Source: Zhongshania marina (GTDB lineage Bacteria; Pseudomonadota; Gammaproteobacteria; Pseudomonadales; Spongiibacteraceae). From it: 64,000 nucleotides of DNA. The position numbers and the translations under genes were made by a program. The DNA is taken from positions 62,001 to 126,000 of the forward strand of contig NZ_PQGG01000019.1 of the NCBI RefSeq assembly GCF_002915595.1, written 5' to 3'. The notes beneath the pieces were generated by a model. The model made no database searches, was not told where the DNA came from, and worked only from the letters and a program-made list of their open reading frames with translations. Shown in pieces: positions 17,950 through 59,097 of the stretch (its first letter is position 1; each line of letters begins with the position of its first letter).

Positions 17950-19446
17950 TCAGACCGAGCTTTGCCCAAGCTCTTGGTATTGTTTCTCCAGCTTTTTCAG
18001 GCGCTTTTTACCTACCCCACCCAAGACCTCAATAGCATGGCGAATTCGCGCCCTACTCATATCTGGCCCCAAGACCTCCATAGAATCCACAACAGAAATA
18101 GATGATGTGGTTCCGGCAATGGCTATAAATAAAGGCGGCATAAAATCCTTGAGTTTAATACCAAGACCATCTGCCACAGATTTCACCTCAGCAAAAATAC
18201 GATCTCGCTGCCAGTCATTCAAGGCTTCTAAACGCCATGCCGTGCATTGAAGCATAGTGACCAGCTCCTCTTCGCCAAGGCTAGAGGCAGCAAAACTTGC
18301 GGGCGTAAGCGGCAACATGCCAGACAAAAAGAACGCTGCTAGCGGCGCCATATCGCTAAATACTTCGATACGCGACTGCACATGTGGCAGCATTTTCATA
18401 AGTGTGTCGCGGTTAAGCGCCCACTCCTGCATGCGATCTGCAAGCTGCTCTAAACTGCAGTCTTCGCGCAGCCACAGGCCATTCAGCCAGCGGAGCTTTT
18501 CAACATCGAATGTCGGCCCACCTAGGCTCACCCGGCTAATGTCAAAATTATCGATCATGGTTTGCAGGCTGAACTTCTCGCTTTCATCCGGCATCGACCA
18601 ACCCATACGACCCAGGTAATTCAGCAGCGCTTCAGGCATAAAGCCCATGCGTTGGTAATACCAAATACTGGTTGGGTTTTTACGTTTACTCAACTTGCTT
18701 TTATCAGGGTTGCGCAGCAGCGGCAGATGACAGAGCACTGGCATTTCCCAGCCAAAATATTGATATAACAATTTATGTTTGGGTGCCGAGTTAATCCACT
18801 CCTCGCCGCGCAGCACGTGGGTGATCTGCATCAAATGATCATCCACCACATTGGCCAAATGGTAGGTGGGTAAGCCGTCTGACTTTAATAGAATTTGAGC
18901 ATCAACCTGCCCCCACTCCAGTTCAATTTTGCCACGTAGCAAATCGTCGATTTCACAGCGACCATCATCTTCAGGGACGTGCATACGAATAACGTAAGGC
19001 TCGCCAGCGGCTTCGCGGCGCGCGTGCTCGGCATCATCCAATTTAAGATCCGAATACTTAAGCGCAGTATGACCACCCGCCGCGCGACGAGCTTCACGCA
19101 GGGCGTCTAATTCCTCAGCAGTTCTGTAGCAGCGAAAGGCATGGCCCGCCGCAATAAGCTGCTCACAATGCGCTTTATAAATCTCACTGCGCTCACTTTG
19201 CCGATAAGGGCCATGCGGACCACCAACATCGGGCCCCTCAGCCCACTCCAGACCGAGCCAGCGCAAAGAGTCTAAAATCGCCTGTTCAGACTCAGGTGTT
19301 GAACGCTGCTGATCGGTATCTTCAATACGCAGCAAAAATTCACCACCCTGGCTTTTCGCAAAACAATAGTTAAATAAAGCAATATAAGCCGTGCCAACAT
19401 GCGGGTCACCGGTGGGCGATGGAGCAATACGAGTGCGAACAGTCAT
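17950..19446 (-). CDS. gltX: Glutamate-tRNA ligase
   Basis: 498 residues from the ATG at 19446 ([13 protein letters not shown]); the longer frame to 19554 is unsupported, and no clear ribosome site is seen. Class I synthetase motifs: [10 protein letters not shown] (HIGH equivalent) near residue 10 and KLSKRK (KMSKS equivalent). Charges tRNA-Glu in the cytoplasm. It is divergent from the stranded dusA start at 19581 and so marks the host side of the prophage's left end. Confidence 0.97.
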
Positions 19447-19580
19447 GGAGTGTTTATTACCATTTGAATACAATAGACATTTTAGCCTCGCATCATTATG
19501 TGTGAGCGGGCCATTCAGGCCGTCATTATACGTGCCCGACGTGGCAAGATTCACCCATCCATAAAGGTATTTAGCGGCAG

Positions 19581-19643
19581 ATGCACAAAAAAATACTTAA
19601 TCGCCGCTTTTGCGTTGCCCCCATGCTCGACTGGCCAGACTAA
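19581..19643 (+). pseudogene. Stranded original 5' end of dusA
   Basis: A 20-codon frame starting at the ATG at 19581 contains [13 protein letters not shown] and then stops. The same segment, [13 protein letters not shown], opens the homologous part of dusA at 58024-59097. The prophage therefore entered dusA here, leaving the native start and presumably the native promoter separated from the rest of the gene by about 38.5 kb. Confidence 0.9.
19623..19639 (+). repeat. attL core
   Basis: ATGCTCGACTGGCCAGA, matching 16 of 17 bases at 58120-58136 (C/T difference at the 13th base). It encodes the MLDW motif of DusA, the known target of DusA-type integrases. Confidence 0.85.
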
Positions 19644-19692
19644 ATTTAAATACCATGAAAAAACAAACAGTTAGAAAGAAATTAAAACAAAA

Positions 19693-19842
19693 TTAAGCAA
19701 ATATTAAGCACTAACTGAATTCCAACGCCCCGCCGCCCACGGCTCTATACAACTGATTCAGTTACAGCGCACCACACCCCCAGAGTGACGTGAACACTAC
19801 CGCAAGACGCTGCTTTTAAAAGCATTAGACCCTAATTAAGCA
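19693..19842. repeat. Candidate integrase arm sites, left end
   Basis: TTAAGCA occurs at 19693, 19704 (extended to TTAAGCACT) and 19836. Its complement TGCTTAA occurs twice beside the integrase start (57955, 57975). Repeats of one motif at both prophage ends are what arm-type integrase or excisionase sites look like; no binding data. Confidence 0.45.
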
Positions 19843-20139
19843 ATATTCAAGAATGAAAGAATTGCGCGATCTGCACGCCTTTATCACGCAGTCAGCGGGT
19901 AACAGTTAAGTCTACACCCACAAGCTCATCATTTTTTGATATCTCCACTGCCAAAATATTTTAACTAGCCTAATCGTTGCCCTCAGGAAAAGGAATTAAA
20001 CGAGACCTCGGGACCAACTTTATCCACAGAAGACACGCGGCATCTTATGCTTGTGGAGGCGTTCGTATCGGATTATCTTGGGATCTTGAGCGCAGAAATT
20101 GAGGGAGGAAAAATTAGCGCGTAACGCTGAAAATAGATG

Positions 20140-20157
20140 GCCCCTTCTAGAAGGGGC
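20140..20157. repeat. 18-bp perfect palindrome
   Basis: GCCCCTTCTAGAAGGGGC is fully self-complementary. No T tract follows, so it is more likely an operator or structural element than a classic terminator. An 11-bp direct repeat flanks it on both sides. Confidence 0.6.
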
Positions 20158-20267
20158 GCAGGTTCTTGGGATCTCGCCGTCAAACTAGACCCAAGGTGTT
20201 ACAACGGAATCATAGCCAATCAGAACCCTATTGGCCAGATTTCATTCAAATTAAAGAGGGCTGCGTT

Positions 20268-20396
20268 ATGCTTATTGCTTTAACAGCAATTGAGTTAACC
20301 TTCTCGATCTTAGCGAATGTAGTGCAGATTACTTTAACTCTCTGCCCCCACATTTGCCAAGATCATATCTGGCGACATTTATTCTTAATGTCGTAA
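20268..20396 (+). CDS. Possible small hydrophobic peptide
   Basis: 42 codons from an ATG with AAGAGGG seven bases upstream. Residues 2-25 (LIALTAIELTFSILANVVQI) form one hydrophobic segment, followed by a Cys/His-containing tail. Small single-span peptides near phage ends can be holins, toxins or exclusion factors, but nothing identifies this one. It may be a chance frame. Confidence 0.35.
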   Translation: MLIALTAIELTFSILANVVQITLTLCPHICQDHIWRHLFLMS

Positions 20397-20459
20397 ACCC
20401 TTTCCGCTTGATCCATTTTGTGGGTCAGGCGGCCTTTAACACCCGCCCATCACACCAAA

Positions 20460-20495
20460 TTGCTCGCTCACAAAATACTGTATATATTCACAGCA
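20460..20495 (+). promoter_or_regulatory. SOS (LexA) box over a sigma70 promoter
   Basis: TACTGTATATATTCACAGCA at 20476-20495 matches 17 of 20 bases of the E. coli LexA consensus, with CTG-N10-CAG intact. It overlaps the -10 of TTGCTC (20460-20465), 17-bp spacer, TATATT (20483-20488). Transcription would start close to the ATG at 20495. Strong candidate for LexA repression of the next two genes. Confidence 0.85.
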
Positions 20496-20830
20496 TGATA
20501 CAGCTAAGATACCGCTACAACGCCGTTTTCAAATCCGTCAGCGAAGCAAGCGCGCCTGATCACGAATACTTGCCCGTGTTAAAAAAGAACGGTGATTTTG
20601 AGCGGGTGCCGTGGAAAGGGTTTATTGATTTAGATGATGCGCGCGAGATAAGCGGCGCCACGCCGGTGAAGTTGGACATTTACCAGTACAGCACATCAGT
20701 CGGGCTGATGCCGAAGTGGCAATATGTGCCCGCTGGGATGGCGGTGCAAGGGTGCTTAACTAAGATCGGGGTTTATGCCGTTGTCGACGACGGTCAGCTA
20801 CGCCTAGTAAAGAGGCCAACACAGCCATAA
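20495..20830 (+). CDS. SOS-controlled protein of unknown function
   Basis: 111 residues from the ATG at 20495, which lies at the last base of the LexA box. There is no room for a ribosome-binding site downstream of the predicted promoter, so the mRNA may be leaderless. The protein is soluble-looking, with no signal peptide or membrane segment: basic N-terminus (IQLRYRYNAVF), acidic centre (FIDLDDAREIS), mixed C-terminus. No family recognised. It is followed 41 bp later by the CsrA-like gene and is transcribed against the tail genes, as expected for cargo expressed in the lysogen under stress. Confidence 0.75.
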   Translation: MIQLRYRYNAVFKSVSEASAPDHEYLPVLKKNGDFERVPWKGFIDLDDAREISGATPVKLDIYQYSTSVGLMPKWQYVPAGMAVQGCLTKIGVYAVVDDGQLRLVKRPTQP

Positions 20831-20871
20831 GCTGCTATATTTCTACAGGCATAGATCACGGAGGATCACCC

Positions 20872-21057
20872 ATGCTTGTACTCACTGTACGCGTTGGCGA
20901 TAGCATTTACATCGACGACAACACCGTAATTACGGTTCTCGATAGATGGCTGGACGAGGTCGACCTGCAGATTGATACCGATCAGGTAATTACGATTGAC
21001 GACCGTCACCTCACAAACAGCCCCGCCACCAATTTAACGCCAAAGTGCCAGACGTAG
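20872..21057 (+). CDS. CsrA-like small RNA-binding protein
   Basis: 61 residues behind a perfect GGAGG. The N-terminus MLVLTVRVGDSIYIDDNTVI aligns with CsrA ([20 protein letters not shown]), and TVLD, VDLQI and ITIDD continue the five-strand pattern. CsrA proteins dimerise and bind GGA in mRNA leaders to change translation. Two RNA-contacting arginines of CsrA appear changed: Arg6 is Val and the Arg44 position reads Asp in the simplest alignment. It may have altered targets or act by heterodimerising with host CsrA. Its 3' end overlaps the convergent peptidase-like gene by 52 bp. Confidence 0.7.
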   Translation: MLVLTVRVGDSIYIDDNTVITVLDRWLDEVDLQIDTDQVITIDDRHLTNSPATNLTPKCQT

Positions 21058-21404
21058 TAGCGTTTTAGGTAGGTGTGGCCCGTTTCTTCGTAAAACTGGC
21101 GCTTGGGTAGCGCGCGTCTTGTGTAGTTGTCGAACCAGAGGCCATTTACGCAGCCGCCCACGTGGAATTCACCGTTGACGGTTTTAAAGCGATGTATTTG
21201 TGCTTTGTGGGTTATGCATACTTGCCAGATAAACTTCCAAAAACCGAGATAGCGATAGAGACAACTGATGGTGAAGTCGTCGCAGTCGCCATGCAGTTTG
21301 CCGTTTTTTTCGCGCATAACAAACCAAGGGTCTATCCATTGGTCTGGGTCTGCGCGGTATTCAAACTTTTTGGCGACGGCGATCACCGCGTCTGTAATCT
21401 TCAT
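21006..21404 (-). CDS. Transglutaminase-like cysteine peptidase-fold protein
   Basis: 132 residues from the ATG at 21404, overlapping the upstream stop by 4 bp. HGDCDDFTISCLYRYLG carries a likely nucleophile Cys; FHVGGCVNGLWFDN carries a His and an Asp/Asn, fitting a Cys-His-Asp triad of the transglutaminase-like superfamily. It is the last gene of the tail operon; it may modify or cut wall peptides at entry or act on host protein. No signal peptide. Confidence 0.6.
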   Translation of the reverse strand: MKITDAVIAVAKKFEYRADPDQWIDPWFVMREKNGKLHGDCDDFTISCLYRYLGFWKFIWQVCITHKAQIHRFKTVNGEFHVGGCVNGLWFDNYTRRALPKRQFYEETGHTYLKRYYVWHFGVKLVAGLFVR

Positions 21405-21838
21405 AGCCCCAGCGCGGCCCGTTGGTCGCGCCCCCACTGTCTGCACTCTTCTACGTATACACCAAAGTCGGCAACCGCATCTGCCTCGCCAGCTTCAAAG
21501 GTGTATTGGCTGGTTAGCACGCCAATGCTGATTCGGGCAAAGTAAAACTCGTCTTCTTGACTGTACTGGTCACGAATCTTCTGCTCTACCCGCTTGGCAA
21601 TTAGTGCGCAGTGCGGGCTTGCGGCTTTAATGCTGGCTTTAAGGGTGTCGGTGAGCGTTACCGTCTCAATGCTTGCTGCAATCTCGGCTGGCTGATTTTC
21701 TGGCAGCGTCTCACCGTCGGGAATGGCCACATAAGTGACCCCTTCAAGCGTGCAAAGCTCGGTTGACCCTTCTGGCGCCAGCAAGCTTTTGGTCGTCACT
21801 GCGTCTGTGTATTTTATGTAGCTAACAATATAGCCCAT
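21401..21838 (-). CDS. Tail-associated protein (possible fibre chaperone)
   Basis: 145 residues beginning MGYIVSYIKYTDAV. The N-terminal half contains two VTYVAIPDGE-like strands; the C-terminal half is helical and charged (KRVEQKIRDQYSQEDEFYFARI). Its position right after the receptor-binding protein is where fibre assembly proteins are commonly found. No family recognised from sequence. Confidence 0.6.
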   Translation of the reverse strand: MGYIVSYIKYTDAVTTKSLLAPEGSTELCTLEGVTYVAIPDGETLPENQPAEIAASIETVTLTDTLKASIKAASPHCALIAKRVEQKIRDQYSQEDEFYFARISIGVLTSQYTFEAGEADAVADFGVYVEECRQWGRDQRAALGL

Positions 21839-21870: not shown

Positions 21871-23220
21871 TCAAAGATACAAGGCCGCACGAAACCCGTG
21901 GCTAGGATTCAAGCTCGCGCGCGAACTGCTCAAACCCAGCGCCCAAACACCGGCGGGCGTGCTGTGGCTCCAGGAGCCGCCAGCACTGGGGAGCATTTGC
22001 GACGTTGAGTAGTCGTTTATGCGGTCATTACCGAATACGTTAGTGCCGGTTGACTCCACCGGAATACCGGCACCTGTCATTTGCCACAGTGTGCCACTGG
22101 TCGCTTCTGAAAAGGTTTTAGACACGCTGCCAACATCTACTGTGCGGTCTGTAAAGTTGAGCGCGGTGCTCGTGAACGTATCCATTACACCAAGGTCGTC
22201 GTACAGAGCGGCATAACCGGTGGCGCCCCATAAGTCAGTAGCTAGCGACGTACCCGCCGTTACGTCTGCCATTGCCACCGATGTTTTTAATACATAAAAG
22301 TGACCAACGCTCTCATCGCCGTCATCCATTGTTAAGCCGGGGCACACATCCCACATGCAGCCGTTTAAGTCTGCAACGCCGCACACTTGGCCATTGTGGG
22401 TCGTCTTAGCCAAAAAGTTAGCACTGCCGGTGAGCGCAGCATTGTCATAGCCGCTTGAGGTAAACGACAGACTGTTATCGTTTACGTCGCCTAGTGCGTT
22501 GTTGTTGCAGCCCTTGGGGAAGTTGGTAATGCCGGCAGCGTCGTACCATGCGCAGTATGTTGGGCTGGTTGCCGCTTGACCGTGGGCGTAGCTGAGCAAG
22601 GCCATTGCTTTAAAAATAAATATGGACTGGCAGAAAAAGCCCGTACCGCGCAAGCTTGCCGCCGTGATAAACGAGGCATTTATATTGCTAGAAACGCCAT
22701 CTAAATCAGCCACAGGGCTATTACTAGCGCTTGATGAAATTGGCGCGCCGTTGCGCAAACTGCTCGCCACACCCGAGTTGTTAGAGCAAAGATATTTGTC
22801 TACAAAAAAGCCTTGCTTTATTTGCCCGCCGTCATAAAAGGCGCGGTGCAGGGCGTAGCCAGCCGCATTGGCTGCAGTTACTGTTGTATAGGCATCTATA
22901 TTTTTTATGTCGCAGGCGTTGATTGCTAGCCCATTGGCGCCGGTGCCGTATTTGTAATAAAAGGCAGGCACCCATACCATTATTGAGCCGTCTGAATATT
23001 GGTAGTTGCCGTAGTTGTCTGACAGCACATCTGTGTAGCCGGGTAGCGCGGTCATGCCGTCTGGCAATGCGGGCGCTATGCCAACACCAAAGCCTGGTTG
23101 CCCAGGTATGCCAATGTCGTTAATGCCGCCAGCACCGGTATTGCCCATGCGTATGCCGCTGGGGAAGTAAACCGGCGCGCCTTCTTTGCCGGCAATTTCG
23201 CTTACAATTAATTGACTCAT
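21871..23220 (-). CDS. Receptor-binding tail protein with C-type-lectin-like C-terminus
   Basis: 449 residues from the ATG at 23220 (GGAG upstream, ATGA overlap with the previous stop). The N-terminal part is Gly-rich and collagen-like (GAGGINDIGIPGQPGFGVG). The C-terminus GGSWSHSTPAGVWALGL followed by SHGFRAALYL matches the closing pattern of formylglycine-generating-enzyme/C-type-lectin folds used in phage receptor proteins such as Mtd. It probably decides host range. Confidence 0.75.
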   Translation of the reverse strand: MSQLIVSEIAGKEGAPVYFPSGIRMGNTGAGGINDIGIPGQPGFGVGIAPALPDGMTALPGYTDVLSDNYGNYQYSDGSIMVWVPAFYYKYGTGANGLAINACDIKNIDAYTTVTAANAAGYALHRAFYDGGQIKQGFFVDKYLCSNNSGVASSLRNGAPISSSASNSPVADLDGVSSNINASFITAASLRGTGFFCQSIFIFKAMALLSYAHGQAATSPTYCAWYDAAGITNFPKGCNNNALGDVNDNSLSFTSSGYDNAALTGSANFLAKTTHNGQVCGVADLNGCMWDVCPGLTMDDGDESVGHFYVLKTSVAMADVTAGTSLATDLWGATGYAALYDDLGVMDTFTSTALNFTDRTVDVGSVSKTFSEATSGTLWQMTGAGIPVESTGTNVFGNDRINDYSTSQMLPSAGGSWSHSTPAGVWALGLSSSRASLNPSHGFRAALYL

Positions 23221-50344: not shown

Positions 50345-50370
50345 TGAAGGCTCCAATATGCTCACAGCTA

Positions 50371-50399
50371 GAATAATCGCGAATCGTGATAATTGTCAA
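50371..50399 (-). promoter_or_regulatory. Leftward early promoter and CI/Cro operator
   Basis: TTGACA (50399-50394), 18-bp spacer, TATTCT (50375-50370). The imperfect palindrome TATCAC-N5-GCGATT (50391-50375) fills the spacer and matches 14 of 17 bases of the perfect site at 51698. The stretch TACGTGTTGACA also occurs at 51658-51669. Confidence 0.75.
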
Positions 50400-50447
50400 C
50401 ACGTAACGAGTTATGCAGATAACGCGCAGCGTGGTAAAAAGTGCACT

Positions 50448-51134
50448 ATGAATATCGCAATCAGACTCAAACAACTCAGAAATCGAAAAGGACTGTCACA
50501 AGCAGACCTTGCAGACGCCTGCGGATGGGATCACCAAAGCCGCATATCAGGCTATGAGCGCAACGAACGAGAACCATCTTTCAGTGACCTAAGCGCCATT
50601 TGCGCCGCGCTAGGGATAACCGTTGCAGAATTTTTCGAATACCAAGTTAAAGAAAGAGCCGCCTCTTACGCGACAGGCCTGAAAGATGCCGACTACAACA
50701 ATATAAACAACGATGTGAGCTCAGGCCCAGACACCCGCGGATTCGTACCCGTCATATCATGGGTACAGGCAGGACAATGGCACGAAGCCGAAGACTTACA
50801 CCAGCCAGGACTAGCTGAAAAATTGATTCCATGCCCCAAAACCCATAGCCGTCAAACTTACGCACTACGCGTACAAGGCGACTCTATGACAGCCCCCATC
50901 GGTCGCAGCTACCCAGAAGGCGCCATTATCTACGTAGACCCAGAGCTTCGAGGAAGCGTAGGCATAGGCGACCGAATAATTGCGAAACTAGACAAAGAAG
51001 ATCGCGTCACGTTCAAACAGCTTGCAAGCGACGGCGATAAAATGTACCTAAAGGCACTAAACCCAAGCCACCCCCCAATATTTGACGAGTTTCGCATTCT
51101 TGGCAAAGTTATAGGCTCTTGGATAGATGACTAA
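50448..51134 (+). CDS. CI-type (LexA-like, S24) phage repressor
   Basis: 228 residues from the ATG at 50448; no ribosome site, as in leaderless lambda cI. XRE helix-turn-helix (about 5-58: GLSQADLADACGWDHQSRISGYE), linker, then S24 peptidase domain with cleavage Ala108-Gly109 (WVQAGQW), Ser146 (GDSMTAP) and Lys190 (VTFKQL). Keeps the prophage silent and is cut on RecA activation. Confidence 0.95.
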   Translation: MNIAIRLKQLRNRKGLSQADLADACGWDHQSRISGYERNEREPSFSDLSAICAALGITVAEFFEYQVKERAASYATGLKDADYNNINNDVSSGPDTRGFVPVISWVQAGQWHEAEDLHQPGLAEKLIPCPKTHSRQTYALRVQGDSMTAPIGRSYPEGAIIYVDPELRGSVGIGDRIIAKLDKEDRVTFKQLASDGDKMYLKALNPSHPPIFDEFRILGKVIGSWIDD

Positions 51135-56821: not shown

Positions 56822-57949
56822 CTAACGGCCACCCTCCCTAGCCCCTAAATCAACCGGCGCCGCCAGAATCTTCGCCAACCAAGGCCAGCCCACATACTTG
56901 TCACCACGCCCCCGCAAATGAGTATAGCGACGGAGCGAATTCCAGTTTCGATGCCCAGAAACACTGGCAACACGCGGGATATCCCAATCCATTTCAAATA
57001 GCCGGCTTACCCCCTCGTGCCGCAAATCATGGAAGCGCAGATCCTCAATCTCTAAAAACTTGCATGCTCGAGTAAAGCTGGCTGAAATCGAGTCGCTGTT
57101 ATACGGAAAAATCTCAGCACAAACCTGCGGCATACTCTTCACAATCGCCATCGCCTCGTCCGGCAGGGCACACCAAATATCATTACCAATCTTCTGGCCC
57201 GGATTTTTCATATCCCGCACCAACACCCGCTGCCCCGCCTCGTCTAAATCAGCCCAGCGAATACGGGTGATCTCCTCCTGACGACGGGTAGAAAACAGAG
57301 CAAAGCCAACCACCTTGAGCATATTAATCGACGCAGGCCGCCGCTTTTGCATCTCGGCATAATGCAACAACAGCGCATCAAGCTCCTTAAAACTTGGCCG
57401 GCGATCGCGCTCGCGGCTGCGGCTAACCATACCCATCTTGCGCAACACCAGCCGCGCATCAGTCATCGCGTGGGGATCCACGTCAAACCCCCAAGCAGGC
57501 CGCGCCACTGACATAACCGCGCCGAGGTGCGCCAAATCATTACCCACTGTCTGTGGCTGCACCGCCCCGCCGTCCGCACCAATTCGCCAGTGAGCATACT
57601 CAACTAAGCGCTGACTGTTTAAATCGGCGAGCAACAAATTACCGAGCCACGACGCCGCAATAGCCTTTAACGTATTCCGCTTAGTATCACCCAGCGGCCG
57701 CAACTTACCGTACTCATCCAAATACTTATGAATTGCATCATGCACAGACACCGAAACCTTACTCGCCTTCTCAAGCGCCCCAGGTTCGGCCAACTCATAT
57801 TCCCGCTTCTTAATCCAAGCGGCCGCCGCCGGTTTACGTTCAAACGTCTGCGTTTCTTGATAGACTATCGCCCCGTCACGGCGAATGCGGATCTGCGCAC
57901 CGTAGACCTTAGAACCATCTTTTTTATTGCGCTGTGTAATCGTGCCCAT
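56822..57949 (-). CDS. Tyrosine integrase (DusA-targeting type)
   Basis: 375 residues. N-terminal arm-binding domain (GSKVYGAQIRIRRDGAIVYQE), SAM-like core-binding domain (about 65-165), catalytic domain with Arg223 (RRQEEI), His307 and Arg310 (HDLRHEG), His333 (SGHRNW) and Tyr342 (RRYTHL). Gene abuts attR in dusA, matching DusA integrases. All catalytic residues are intact. Confidence 0.97.
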   Translation of the reverse strand: MGTITQRNKKDGSKVYGAQIRIRRDGAIVYQETQTFERKPAAAAWIKKREYELAEPGALEKASKVSVSVHDAIHKYLDEYGKLRPLGDTKRNTLKAIAASWLGNLLLADLNSQRLVEYAHWRIGADGGAVQPQTVGNDLAHLGAVMSVARPAWGFDVDPHAMTDARLVLRKMGMVSRSRERDRRPSFKELDALLLHYAEMQKRRPASINMLKVVGFALFSTRRQEEITRIRWADLDEAGQRVLVRDMKNPGQKIGNDIWCALPDEAMAIVKSMPQVCAEIFPYNSDSISASFTRACKFLEIEDLRFHDLRHEGVSRLFEMDWDIPRVASVSGHRNWNSLRRYTHLRGRGDKYVGWPWLAKILAAPVDLGAREGGR

Positions 57950-58023: not shown

Positions 58024-59097
58024 ATGATCGAAAATAGAACAAGCCGAGAACACCCAAAAGCACCGGCAAACCCACCAATCACGCGCAAAAGCCTTGATAG
58101 ACGGTTCTGTGTAGCACCGATGCTCGACTGGTCAGATCGGCATTGCAGGGTATTTTGGCGTCAGTTGACCACCGAAGCGGTGCTTTACACCGAAATGATC
58201 ACCACCGGTGCTCTGATTCACGGCGATGCTGAGCGACACCTAAATTTTAGTGATGTAGAACATCCGGTAGCATTGCAGTTAGGCGGTAGCGATCCAGAGG
58301 CACTAGTCCACTCAGTTCGACTTGCAGAACAATGGGGCTACGACGAAGTTAATTTAAATTGTGGTTGCCCATCAGACCGCGTTCAAAATGGCTTTTTTGG
58401 CGCCTGCTTAATGTCGCGCCCCGCGCTGGTCGCAGACTGTGTTAAGGCCATGAAAGACGCCTGCTCCCTACCCATTACCGTAAAACACCGCATCGGCATT
58501 GATGAGCAAGAAGGATATGAACCTCTACAAGAATTCGTCGCCGCCATTGCAGAAGCCGGTAGCGACGCGATTATCGTCCACGCCCGCAAAGCCTGGCTAG
58601 AAGGCTTGAGCCCAAAAGAAAACCGCGAAATTCCTCCCTTAAACTACGGTTTGGTGCACCAACTAAAGCAGGACTTCCCAGATCTTGAAATCATCATTAA
58701 CGGTGGTATTCAAACCATCGATGATGCCGCCTCGCAATTGTCATATGTGGATGGCATCATGATGGGCCGCAGCGCGTATCAAACCCCGTTTATTCTTGCC
58801 GATGTAGATTCACAATTTTACGGCCAAGACCGGCAGACACCCGTACGCGGCGATGTCATACGCAGCATGTTCCCCTATATTGAAGCGGAACTCGCCAAGG
58901 GCACCCGACTCAATCATATGACTCGACATATATTAGGTCTATTTAATGGAGAACCCGGCGGCCGCCTATTCCGGCGCCATATAAGCGAATACGCCCATCG
59001 CCCAAATGCCGGCATTGAGATATTGGAACAGGCGCTTCAACTAACAGATGACGCCCTGCAAACCATGATGACTAAAAGGACAGTGAGTAATGAGTAG
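58024..59097 (+). CDS. dusA: tRNA-dihydrouridine synthase A with phage-supplied 5' end
   Basis: 357 residues. Reduces U20/U20a of tRNA using FMN. Active-site Cys in [21 protein letters not shown] and VHARKAW segments are family standard. The first 24 or so codons come from the prophage; homologous sequence starts at [12 protein letters not shown]. The original first codons are at 19581. The stop overlaps talB by 8 bp. Confidence 0.96.
58120..58136 (+). repeat. attR core
   Basis: ATGCTCGACTGGTCAGA, 16 of 17 bases identical to the left copy at 19623. Lies in codons for MLDWSD of dusA. Confidence 0.85.

Follow-up and report, generated by a model that had tools for sequence, protein, structure and literature searches.

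A putative LexA operator on the start codon of a mobile-element gene: a candidate leaderless SOS unit in a dusA-associated prophage

The closest described systems are genes and operons of prophages that are controlled by the host repressor LexA. In Gifsy-1, Gifsy-2 and Gifsy-3, a LexA-controlled operon that lies outside the immunity region consists of a dinI homologue, an antirepressor gene and irsA, in that order, while Tum of phage 186 and AntC of N15 are LexA-controlled prophage antirepressors (PMC3121763). In the parts of that account drawn on here, the LexA-controlled prophage genes are antirepressors and DinI relatives. Messages that lack a leader provide a second point of comparison: the translational start of the Mycobacterium tuberculosis lexA mRNA coincides with its transcription start (PMC2897130), and the same mRNA is named as leaderless elsewhere (PMC3062782). 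Finally, a group of islands and prophages associated with dusA is described as having an integrase beside that gene, imperfect att repeats and a replaced dusA 5' end (PMC4482086).

The window (the whole 64-kb stretch of DNA that was analysed) contains a prophage of about 38.5 kb, with terminase, portal, major head and tape-measure genes between its edges. An integrase lies beside dusA, att repeats are found at both ends, and the 5' end of dusA has been replaced (Table 1), which places it among the dusA-associated prophages. The two-gene unit of interest is likely to be a mobile-element accessory unit belonging to the host LexA regulon, the first gene of which would be LexA-repressed and leaderless or nearly so. 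A preliminary description had placed the unit at the left end of the prophage, rightly, since about 0.85 kb of prophage DNA separates it from the left attachment site, and had listed a 111-residue protein and a CsrA-like protein, both of which are present as open reading frames (ORFs). It was also said to oppose the tail genes, and indeed it converges on minus-strand ORFs. (PHROGs match neither of the two nearest; the third gives a weak match to a tail protein, with an E-value of 1.6e-6, and the tape-measure gene lies beyond.) Its proposed separation from the lytic switch agrees with the position of the prophage's own HTH and S24 repressor, 30 kb away.

Table 1. Positions of the unit, its putative control elements and the prophage landmarks in the window.
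Feature	Position	Strand	Remarks
Stranded original 5' end of host dusA	19581..19643	+	21 codons including stop
attL core	19623..19634	+	12 nt common to dusA
-35-like hexamer TTGCTC	20460..20465	+	3/6 match; 17 nt ahead of -10; absent from promoter scan
LexA box	20476..20495	+	TACTGTATATATTCACAGCA; 17/20 to consensus; last base is the A of the start codon
-10 hexamer TATATT	20483..20488	+	Inside LexA box; predicted +1 at 20495
First gene, 111-aa protein, phrog_15882-like	20495..20830	+	All-beta model, pLDDT 90; predicted leaderless
Ribosome-binding site GGAGG of second gene	20860..20864	+	Sequence; duplex energy -9.5 kcal/mol
Second gene, 61-aa CsrA-domain protein	20872..21057	+	Asp at position 44, Val at position 6
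CI-type repressor, HTH + S24 peptidase	50358..51134	+	PF01381, PF00717; separate lytic switch
Tyrosine integrase adjoining dusA	56822..57949	-	PF00589
dusA, 5' end supplied by prophage	58024..59097	+	NF008774, 523 bits
attR core inside dusA	58120..58131	+	

Two features flank the unit. Downstream, the CsrA-like ORF shares 52 nt (21006-21057) with the convergent ORF at 21006-21446, and a scan of 19400-21500 gave no plus-strand terminator-like site; as a result, damage-induced transcription could enter the tail side antisense. Upstream, between attL and the unit (20130-20440), lies a hydrophobic 42-aa ORF (20268-20396) with a hairpin-rich leader, which is kept in the related viral contig L013 (about 1900-2220). 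By eye, the inverted repeat that follows this ORF and ends GTCAGGCGGC is clear in L013 and weaker in the window. The region resembles a type I toxin layout, and it has no DNA match in the 20 other genomes of the same bacterial family. An Rfam search of 19500-21500 (E limit 1) returned a single match (E 0.25; 16 bits versus a gathering score of 40), which was discounted.

Does the unit belong to the host regulon? The LexA box matches 17 of the 20 consensus positions, as first claimed, and is the sole site in the whole 64 kb that fits TACTGTATATATATACAGTA with at most three mismatches; none arose in 100 dinucleotide shuffles of the window. (Two further CTGT-N8-ACAG sites, at 22074 and 33345, were set aside: the shuffles expect 0.55 of them, and three were reached in two of 100.) Within the 4.13-Mb host genome (46 contigs), six sites match the LexA pattern with up to three mismatches, compared to one for the reversed control. 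The five that lie outside the window precede recN, a umuD-like/SRAP-like pair, a yebG-like gene and two integron integrase genes. The umuD-like gene (NF007621, over cut-off) is divergent from the SRAP-like gene and shares its box; the latter was named from its MCGR start, its sole NCBIfam match being under cut-off. The yebG-like gene, at 29.6 bits, is also under its cut-off, and both integron integrases are over theirs in NCBIfam. Because these five boxes precede SOS-type genes, the window box, which at 17/20 falls under the same pattern, would be a host-type SOS operator, and the LexA control that had been proposed is supported to that extent. What is unusual is its zero spacing: the other host SOS genes have 15-43 nt between box and start codon, and the SRAP-like gene has 74 nt. 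In the two integron integrase genes (L051 and L054, of the same genome), the box is 15-16 nt ahead of the ATG.

The arrangement is not confined to this prophage. Homologues were found in four of the 21 genomes of the same bacterial family, the host's own included, and eight close loci were compared: the window, four viral contigs (L003, L004, L005 and L013) and three same-family genomes (L006, L007 and L008). The close homologues are 45-82% identical to the window protein. In 8/8 loci, the first gene starts with ATG, and the best box, which scores 15-18 of 20, has its end at -1 to +1 nt relative to that codon. In 3000 shuffles per locus, the observed box score was never reached for seven loci, and L005 gave a rate of 5.5e-6 per position. 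Since the eight loci are related, they do not amount to independent trials. Mean pairwise identity among them is 78% for the box versus 32% for the 60 nt upstream, and dN is 0.09-0.25, with dS at 1.7-2.9 or saturated, when the window is compared with the four viral contigs; by this measure, the first gene is under purifying selection. Gene and operator thus look selected, while their surroundings turn over. L013 occupies the same gltX-dusA site, yet has different DNA immediately before the box; L003 and L004 are prophages adjoining tRNA-Asn. Of the two features that the preliminary description had proposed to compare among dusA prophages, the box is kept in 8/8 of these close loci and the gene order in 2/8. 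In L006 (1825-1880, genome G020), the box is common to the homologue and a divergent SRAP/HMCES gene (PF02586), resembling the umuD/SRAP-like pair on one box in the window's genome.

What does the first gene encode? The window protein matches phrog_15882 over residues 4-108 (E 1.6e-5, 25.8 bits), as do 11 of 13 family members, and this PHROG carries no assigned function in the library. Its predicted model is all-beta and confident (pLDDT 90.4, pTM 0.82). Foldseek gave no match to this model in PDB or BFVD at E<=0.001, and a PDB profile search returned only an antibody chain at E 0.87. Pfam and NCBIfam offer no family for the window protein and no credible one for the 13 members, weak matches being limited to one to three members each (the best is Paratox, E 0.0079, in one member). 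Neither DinI nor PsiB is among the weak matches listed for these 13; models for both are presumably present in the two libraries. PADLOC gave no match for family members. When phages were searched with tblastn, the window protein and those of L006, L018 and L021 found no match, and those of L047 and L050 found one phage, HY01.

Could the unit be a LexA-controlled antirepressor operon, whose small protein inactivates the prophage repressor and thereby couples induction to SOS? The product is small, apparently LexA-controlled and encoded outside the immunity region, as in the Gifsy operon, where the dinI homologue comes first and the antirepressor next (PMC3121763). However, the S24 peptidase domain of the window prophage's repressor is complete, and an Ala-Gly pair and Ser/Lys were recognized by eye in the sequence, so that this repressor should cleave itself. 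Homologues are moreover found on plasmids, in an ICE-like gene neighborhood (L040, by eye) and on an island (L039) that carries a serine recombinase gene and, by eye, an ORF resembling ComM, where no repressor-like gene was seen by eye among the listed ORFs. An antirepressor operon is therefore improbable, and the occurrence on unrelated element types favors a host-directed role. As a guess, which is possible and still rather unlikely to be right, the 111-aa product would be a small modulator of the host's damage response or cell cycle, with a DinI- or PsiB-like role in the absence of homology.

In the preliminary description, the unit was read as a damage-induced module for host control, a view under which the CsrA-like protein would rewire host mRNAs. 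The domain itself exceeds the Pfam cut-off (PF02599, 35.7 bits versus 27), csrA genes are known on phages and plasmids (PMC7366521), the two-gene order is repeated in L013, and the CsrA-like neighbor in L007 retains Arg44. Against this, the CsrA equivalog cut-offs in NCBIfam are missed (TIGR00202, 26.2 versus 70.1; NF002469, 23.9 versus 73). Arg44, which is termed essential for RNA binding (PMC7366521), is replaced by Asp in the window and by Asn in L013, and Arg6 by Val in both, whereas the three csrA copies found in the host keep both arginines. Nor is the gene a constant partner. It directly follows the first gene only in the window and L013, lies 0.5-0.9 kb downstream in L003, L004 and L005, is upstream and in opposite orientation in L007, and is missing by eye from the nearby ORFs listed for L006 and L008. 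Thus, the CsrA domain stands, and its service as a host-control module is unlikely. The CsrA-like protein of the window is modeled with moderate confidence (pLDDT 69.8); the model shows three strands in its center and no structure past residue 36. Under a bolder extension of the SOS-effector reading given below, the Arg44-less partner would act as a decoy, poisoning the CsrA dimers of the host. In the related prophage L012, a DUF2971 protein (2340-2975) that matches the PADLOC candidate PDC-S31 adjoins the CsrA-like gene; this spot may be an accessory or defense position.

Where would transcription of the unit begin? The seventh base past TATATT is the A of the ATG (20495-20497), so the hexamer spacing agrees with the earlier prediction of a start on this codon. 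The same description had spoken of a good promoter with the box on its -10. The overlap is there; the quality is not, since the -35 matches in only three of six positions and is not called by the promoter scan, and two other hexamer pairs tie with the window pair at 8/12. A TTGC-type hexamer 16-18 nt ahead of the -10 is nevertheless recurrent in several homologues. In 7/8 close loci TATATT or TATAAT lies within the box, and in 7/8 hexamer spacing from a -10 inside the box puts the predicted +1 0-3 nt before the ATG. (L007 has no good promoter that would yield a short leader, and in L013 a hexamer pair farther upstream scores one point above the in-box promoter.) None of the eight close loci has a ribosome-binding site ahead of the first gene (duplex +0.9 kcal/mol). 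Among the controls, duplexes were -2.9 to -6.8 kcal/mol for six host SOS genes and -9.5 kcal/mol for the csrA-like second gene in both the window and L013. The leaderless possibility raised previously is supported, as a prediction, by this absence and by the box-ATG geometry kept in 8/8. The message of the first gene probably opens with the coding part itself, with the damage switch on its start codon.

It is quite improbable that the message instead starts at a promoter farther upstream and carries a normal leader, with LexA acting as a roadblock on the start codon. The weak, uncalled -35 would fit such an arrangement, but no ribosome-binding site precedes the ATG wherever the start lies, and the 60 nt upstream are poorly conserved, whereas the in-box TATATT/TATAAT recurs. 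In more distant relatives the geometry loosens. In L021, at 28% identity, 10 nt separate the box from the gene, and a ribosome-binding site is again missing; the promoter that scores best there uses another -10, yet it too places the predicted start on the ATG. Gaps between box and gene are 12-14 nt in L017 and L050, both of which have ribosome-binding sites, and 30 nt in L019; the leaderless start would therefore be the property of one branch, not of the whole family.

A profile of the family found members at 13 places in 12 of 390 genomes of the order, all with a sense-strand box of at least 15/20 upstream. At three of the 13, of which two are in a single genome, box and gene are separated by a further ORF or what remains of one. 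In one genus (L018, L020 and L025), a different ORF comes after the box and ends in a stop that overlaps the ATG of the family gene; this ORF encodes 84 aa in L020, without a Pfam family, and is broken in L018. The arrangement makes up another SOS operon, in which the family gene is the second member. In L022, L023 and L024, three genomes of a single genus, a LexA-like box accompanies an in-frame stop after 74 residues; they and L025, with its disrupted N-terminus, were included in the order tally and left out of alignments. Two broken fragments without a box (L028 and L037) were kept outside the counts. Also left out before counting were copies of the window's own element (L001, L002, L010, L014, L026, L027, L052, L057 and L063) and duplicates of the same places (L009, L011, L012, L015, L016, L029-L036 and L064).

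A class-wide draw of 369 genomes matched only in the host's own genome and L028, and the phrog_15882 profile matched three of 398 genomes of the phylum (own included) and none of 14 control genomes. Through L050, a relative carried by a plasmid, 22 records of Vibrio plasmids were reached. Fifteen members outside the order tally were considered, namely 11 of these 22 plasmids, phage HY01, a Marinobacter plasmid and two genomes; one, L067, has a broken frame in two pieces. A box of at least 15/20 within 300 nt upstream is present in three of the 15 (16/20 in L050, 15/20 in L066 and L046) and absent from the other 12, including the Marinobacter plasmid. SOS control is thus not universal in the family: the wiring is consistent within the order (13/13) and sporadic elsewhere (3/15). 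The relatives L065-L074 reside on Vibrio plasmids of 42.6-341 kb, several adjoining parA/parB and some after a large ORF, as in HY01, and some of these may be phage-plasmids. The idea that the box is a trait of dusA prophages was rejected, given L003 and L004 at tRNA-Asn, the serine recombinase of L039 and an integrase-like ORF (by eye) at L041. The first-gene family is found on prophages, islands and plasmids, and the unit is not peculiar to dusA prophages. The first gene is very unlikely to encode an accessory protein of the virion or tail that acquired its LexA box by chance in one lineage. The HY01 relative, which has no LexA box, does begin on the last base of a 3.6-kb ORF, and the window unit adjoins tail genes. 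However, the window copy is transcribed against these, plasmids also carry copies (in some cases close to parA/parB), and so does an island in which no structural genes were seen by eye along the stretch read.

How, then, would an accessory unit of the LexA regulon operate? In the undamaged cell, LexA would occupy the -10 and the start codon and block RNA polymerase from starting. Upon damage, RecA-stimulated cleavage of LexA would free the promoter, and transcription starting on the AUG or no more than about 3 nt from it would give a leaderless or nearly leaderless mRNA. The first gene would be translated from this 5'-terminal AUG and the second, CsrA-domain gene from its strong GGAGG site. 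The 111-aa product would be made in the lysogen before, and independently of, cleavage of the prophage repressor.

Quite possibly, if a little short of probable, the first gene represents an undescribed family of SOS effectors of mobile elements, with a fold unmatched in the PDB and an operator fused to the start codon. If so, one element of about 20 bp would be repressor site, -10 and translation start at once, a zero-leader damage switch that selection has kept in prophages and islands alike, despite the turnover of the DNA around it. With this layout, a gammaproteobacterium with damaged DNA is predicted to translate the gene without a leader. Is leaderless translation favored during the SOS response? 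And what do mobile elements do to a damaged host before committing to excision?

Compared with the systems described at the outset, the dusA-associated elements share with the window prophage the integrase beside dusA, the att repeats and the replaced dusA 5' end; the main text of their account describes no LexA unit ('lexa' occurs 0 times; PMC4482086). Similarly, RsmM and other CsrA homologues of phages and plasmids are CsrA-domain proteins on mobile elements (PMC7366521). The Pseudomonas Rsm subfamilies are said in that paper to retain the RNA-binding residues, unlike the window protein, which lacks Arg44 and Arg6. Among the literature matches listed, mostly from non-subscription literature, none has an operator on the start codon in gammaproteobacterial mobile elements, and the only leaderless SOS genes recognized, at the level of titles and abstracts, are mycobacterial lexA and recX. 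The lexA of M. tuberculosis is a core chromosomal gene of another phylum, whereas the window gene is mobile and gammaproteobacterial, and it differs from the six other SOS-type genes examined in its own host, which have ribosome-binding sites. Like Tum and AntC, the first gene product would be a LexA-controlled prophage protein; unlike these, its family also occurs on non-prophage elements. The Gifsy operon resembles the unit in that it belongs to a prophage, lies beyond the immunity region, has a LexA box on its promoter and encodes a small protein first. The window unit, however, matches no DinI or antirepressor family, its box lies on the start codon, and its prophage has a CI-type S24 repressor, whereas the cognate Gifsy repressor is stated to be non-cleavable (PMC3121763). 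In the window, by comparison, an unnamed family found on several kinds of mobile element is tied to SOS by a putative operator-on-start-codon layout.
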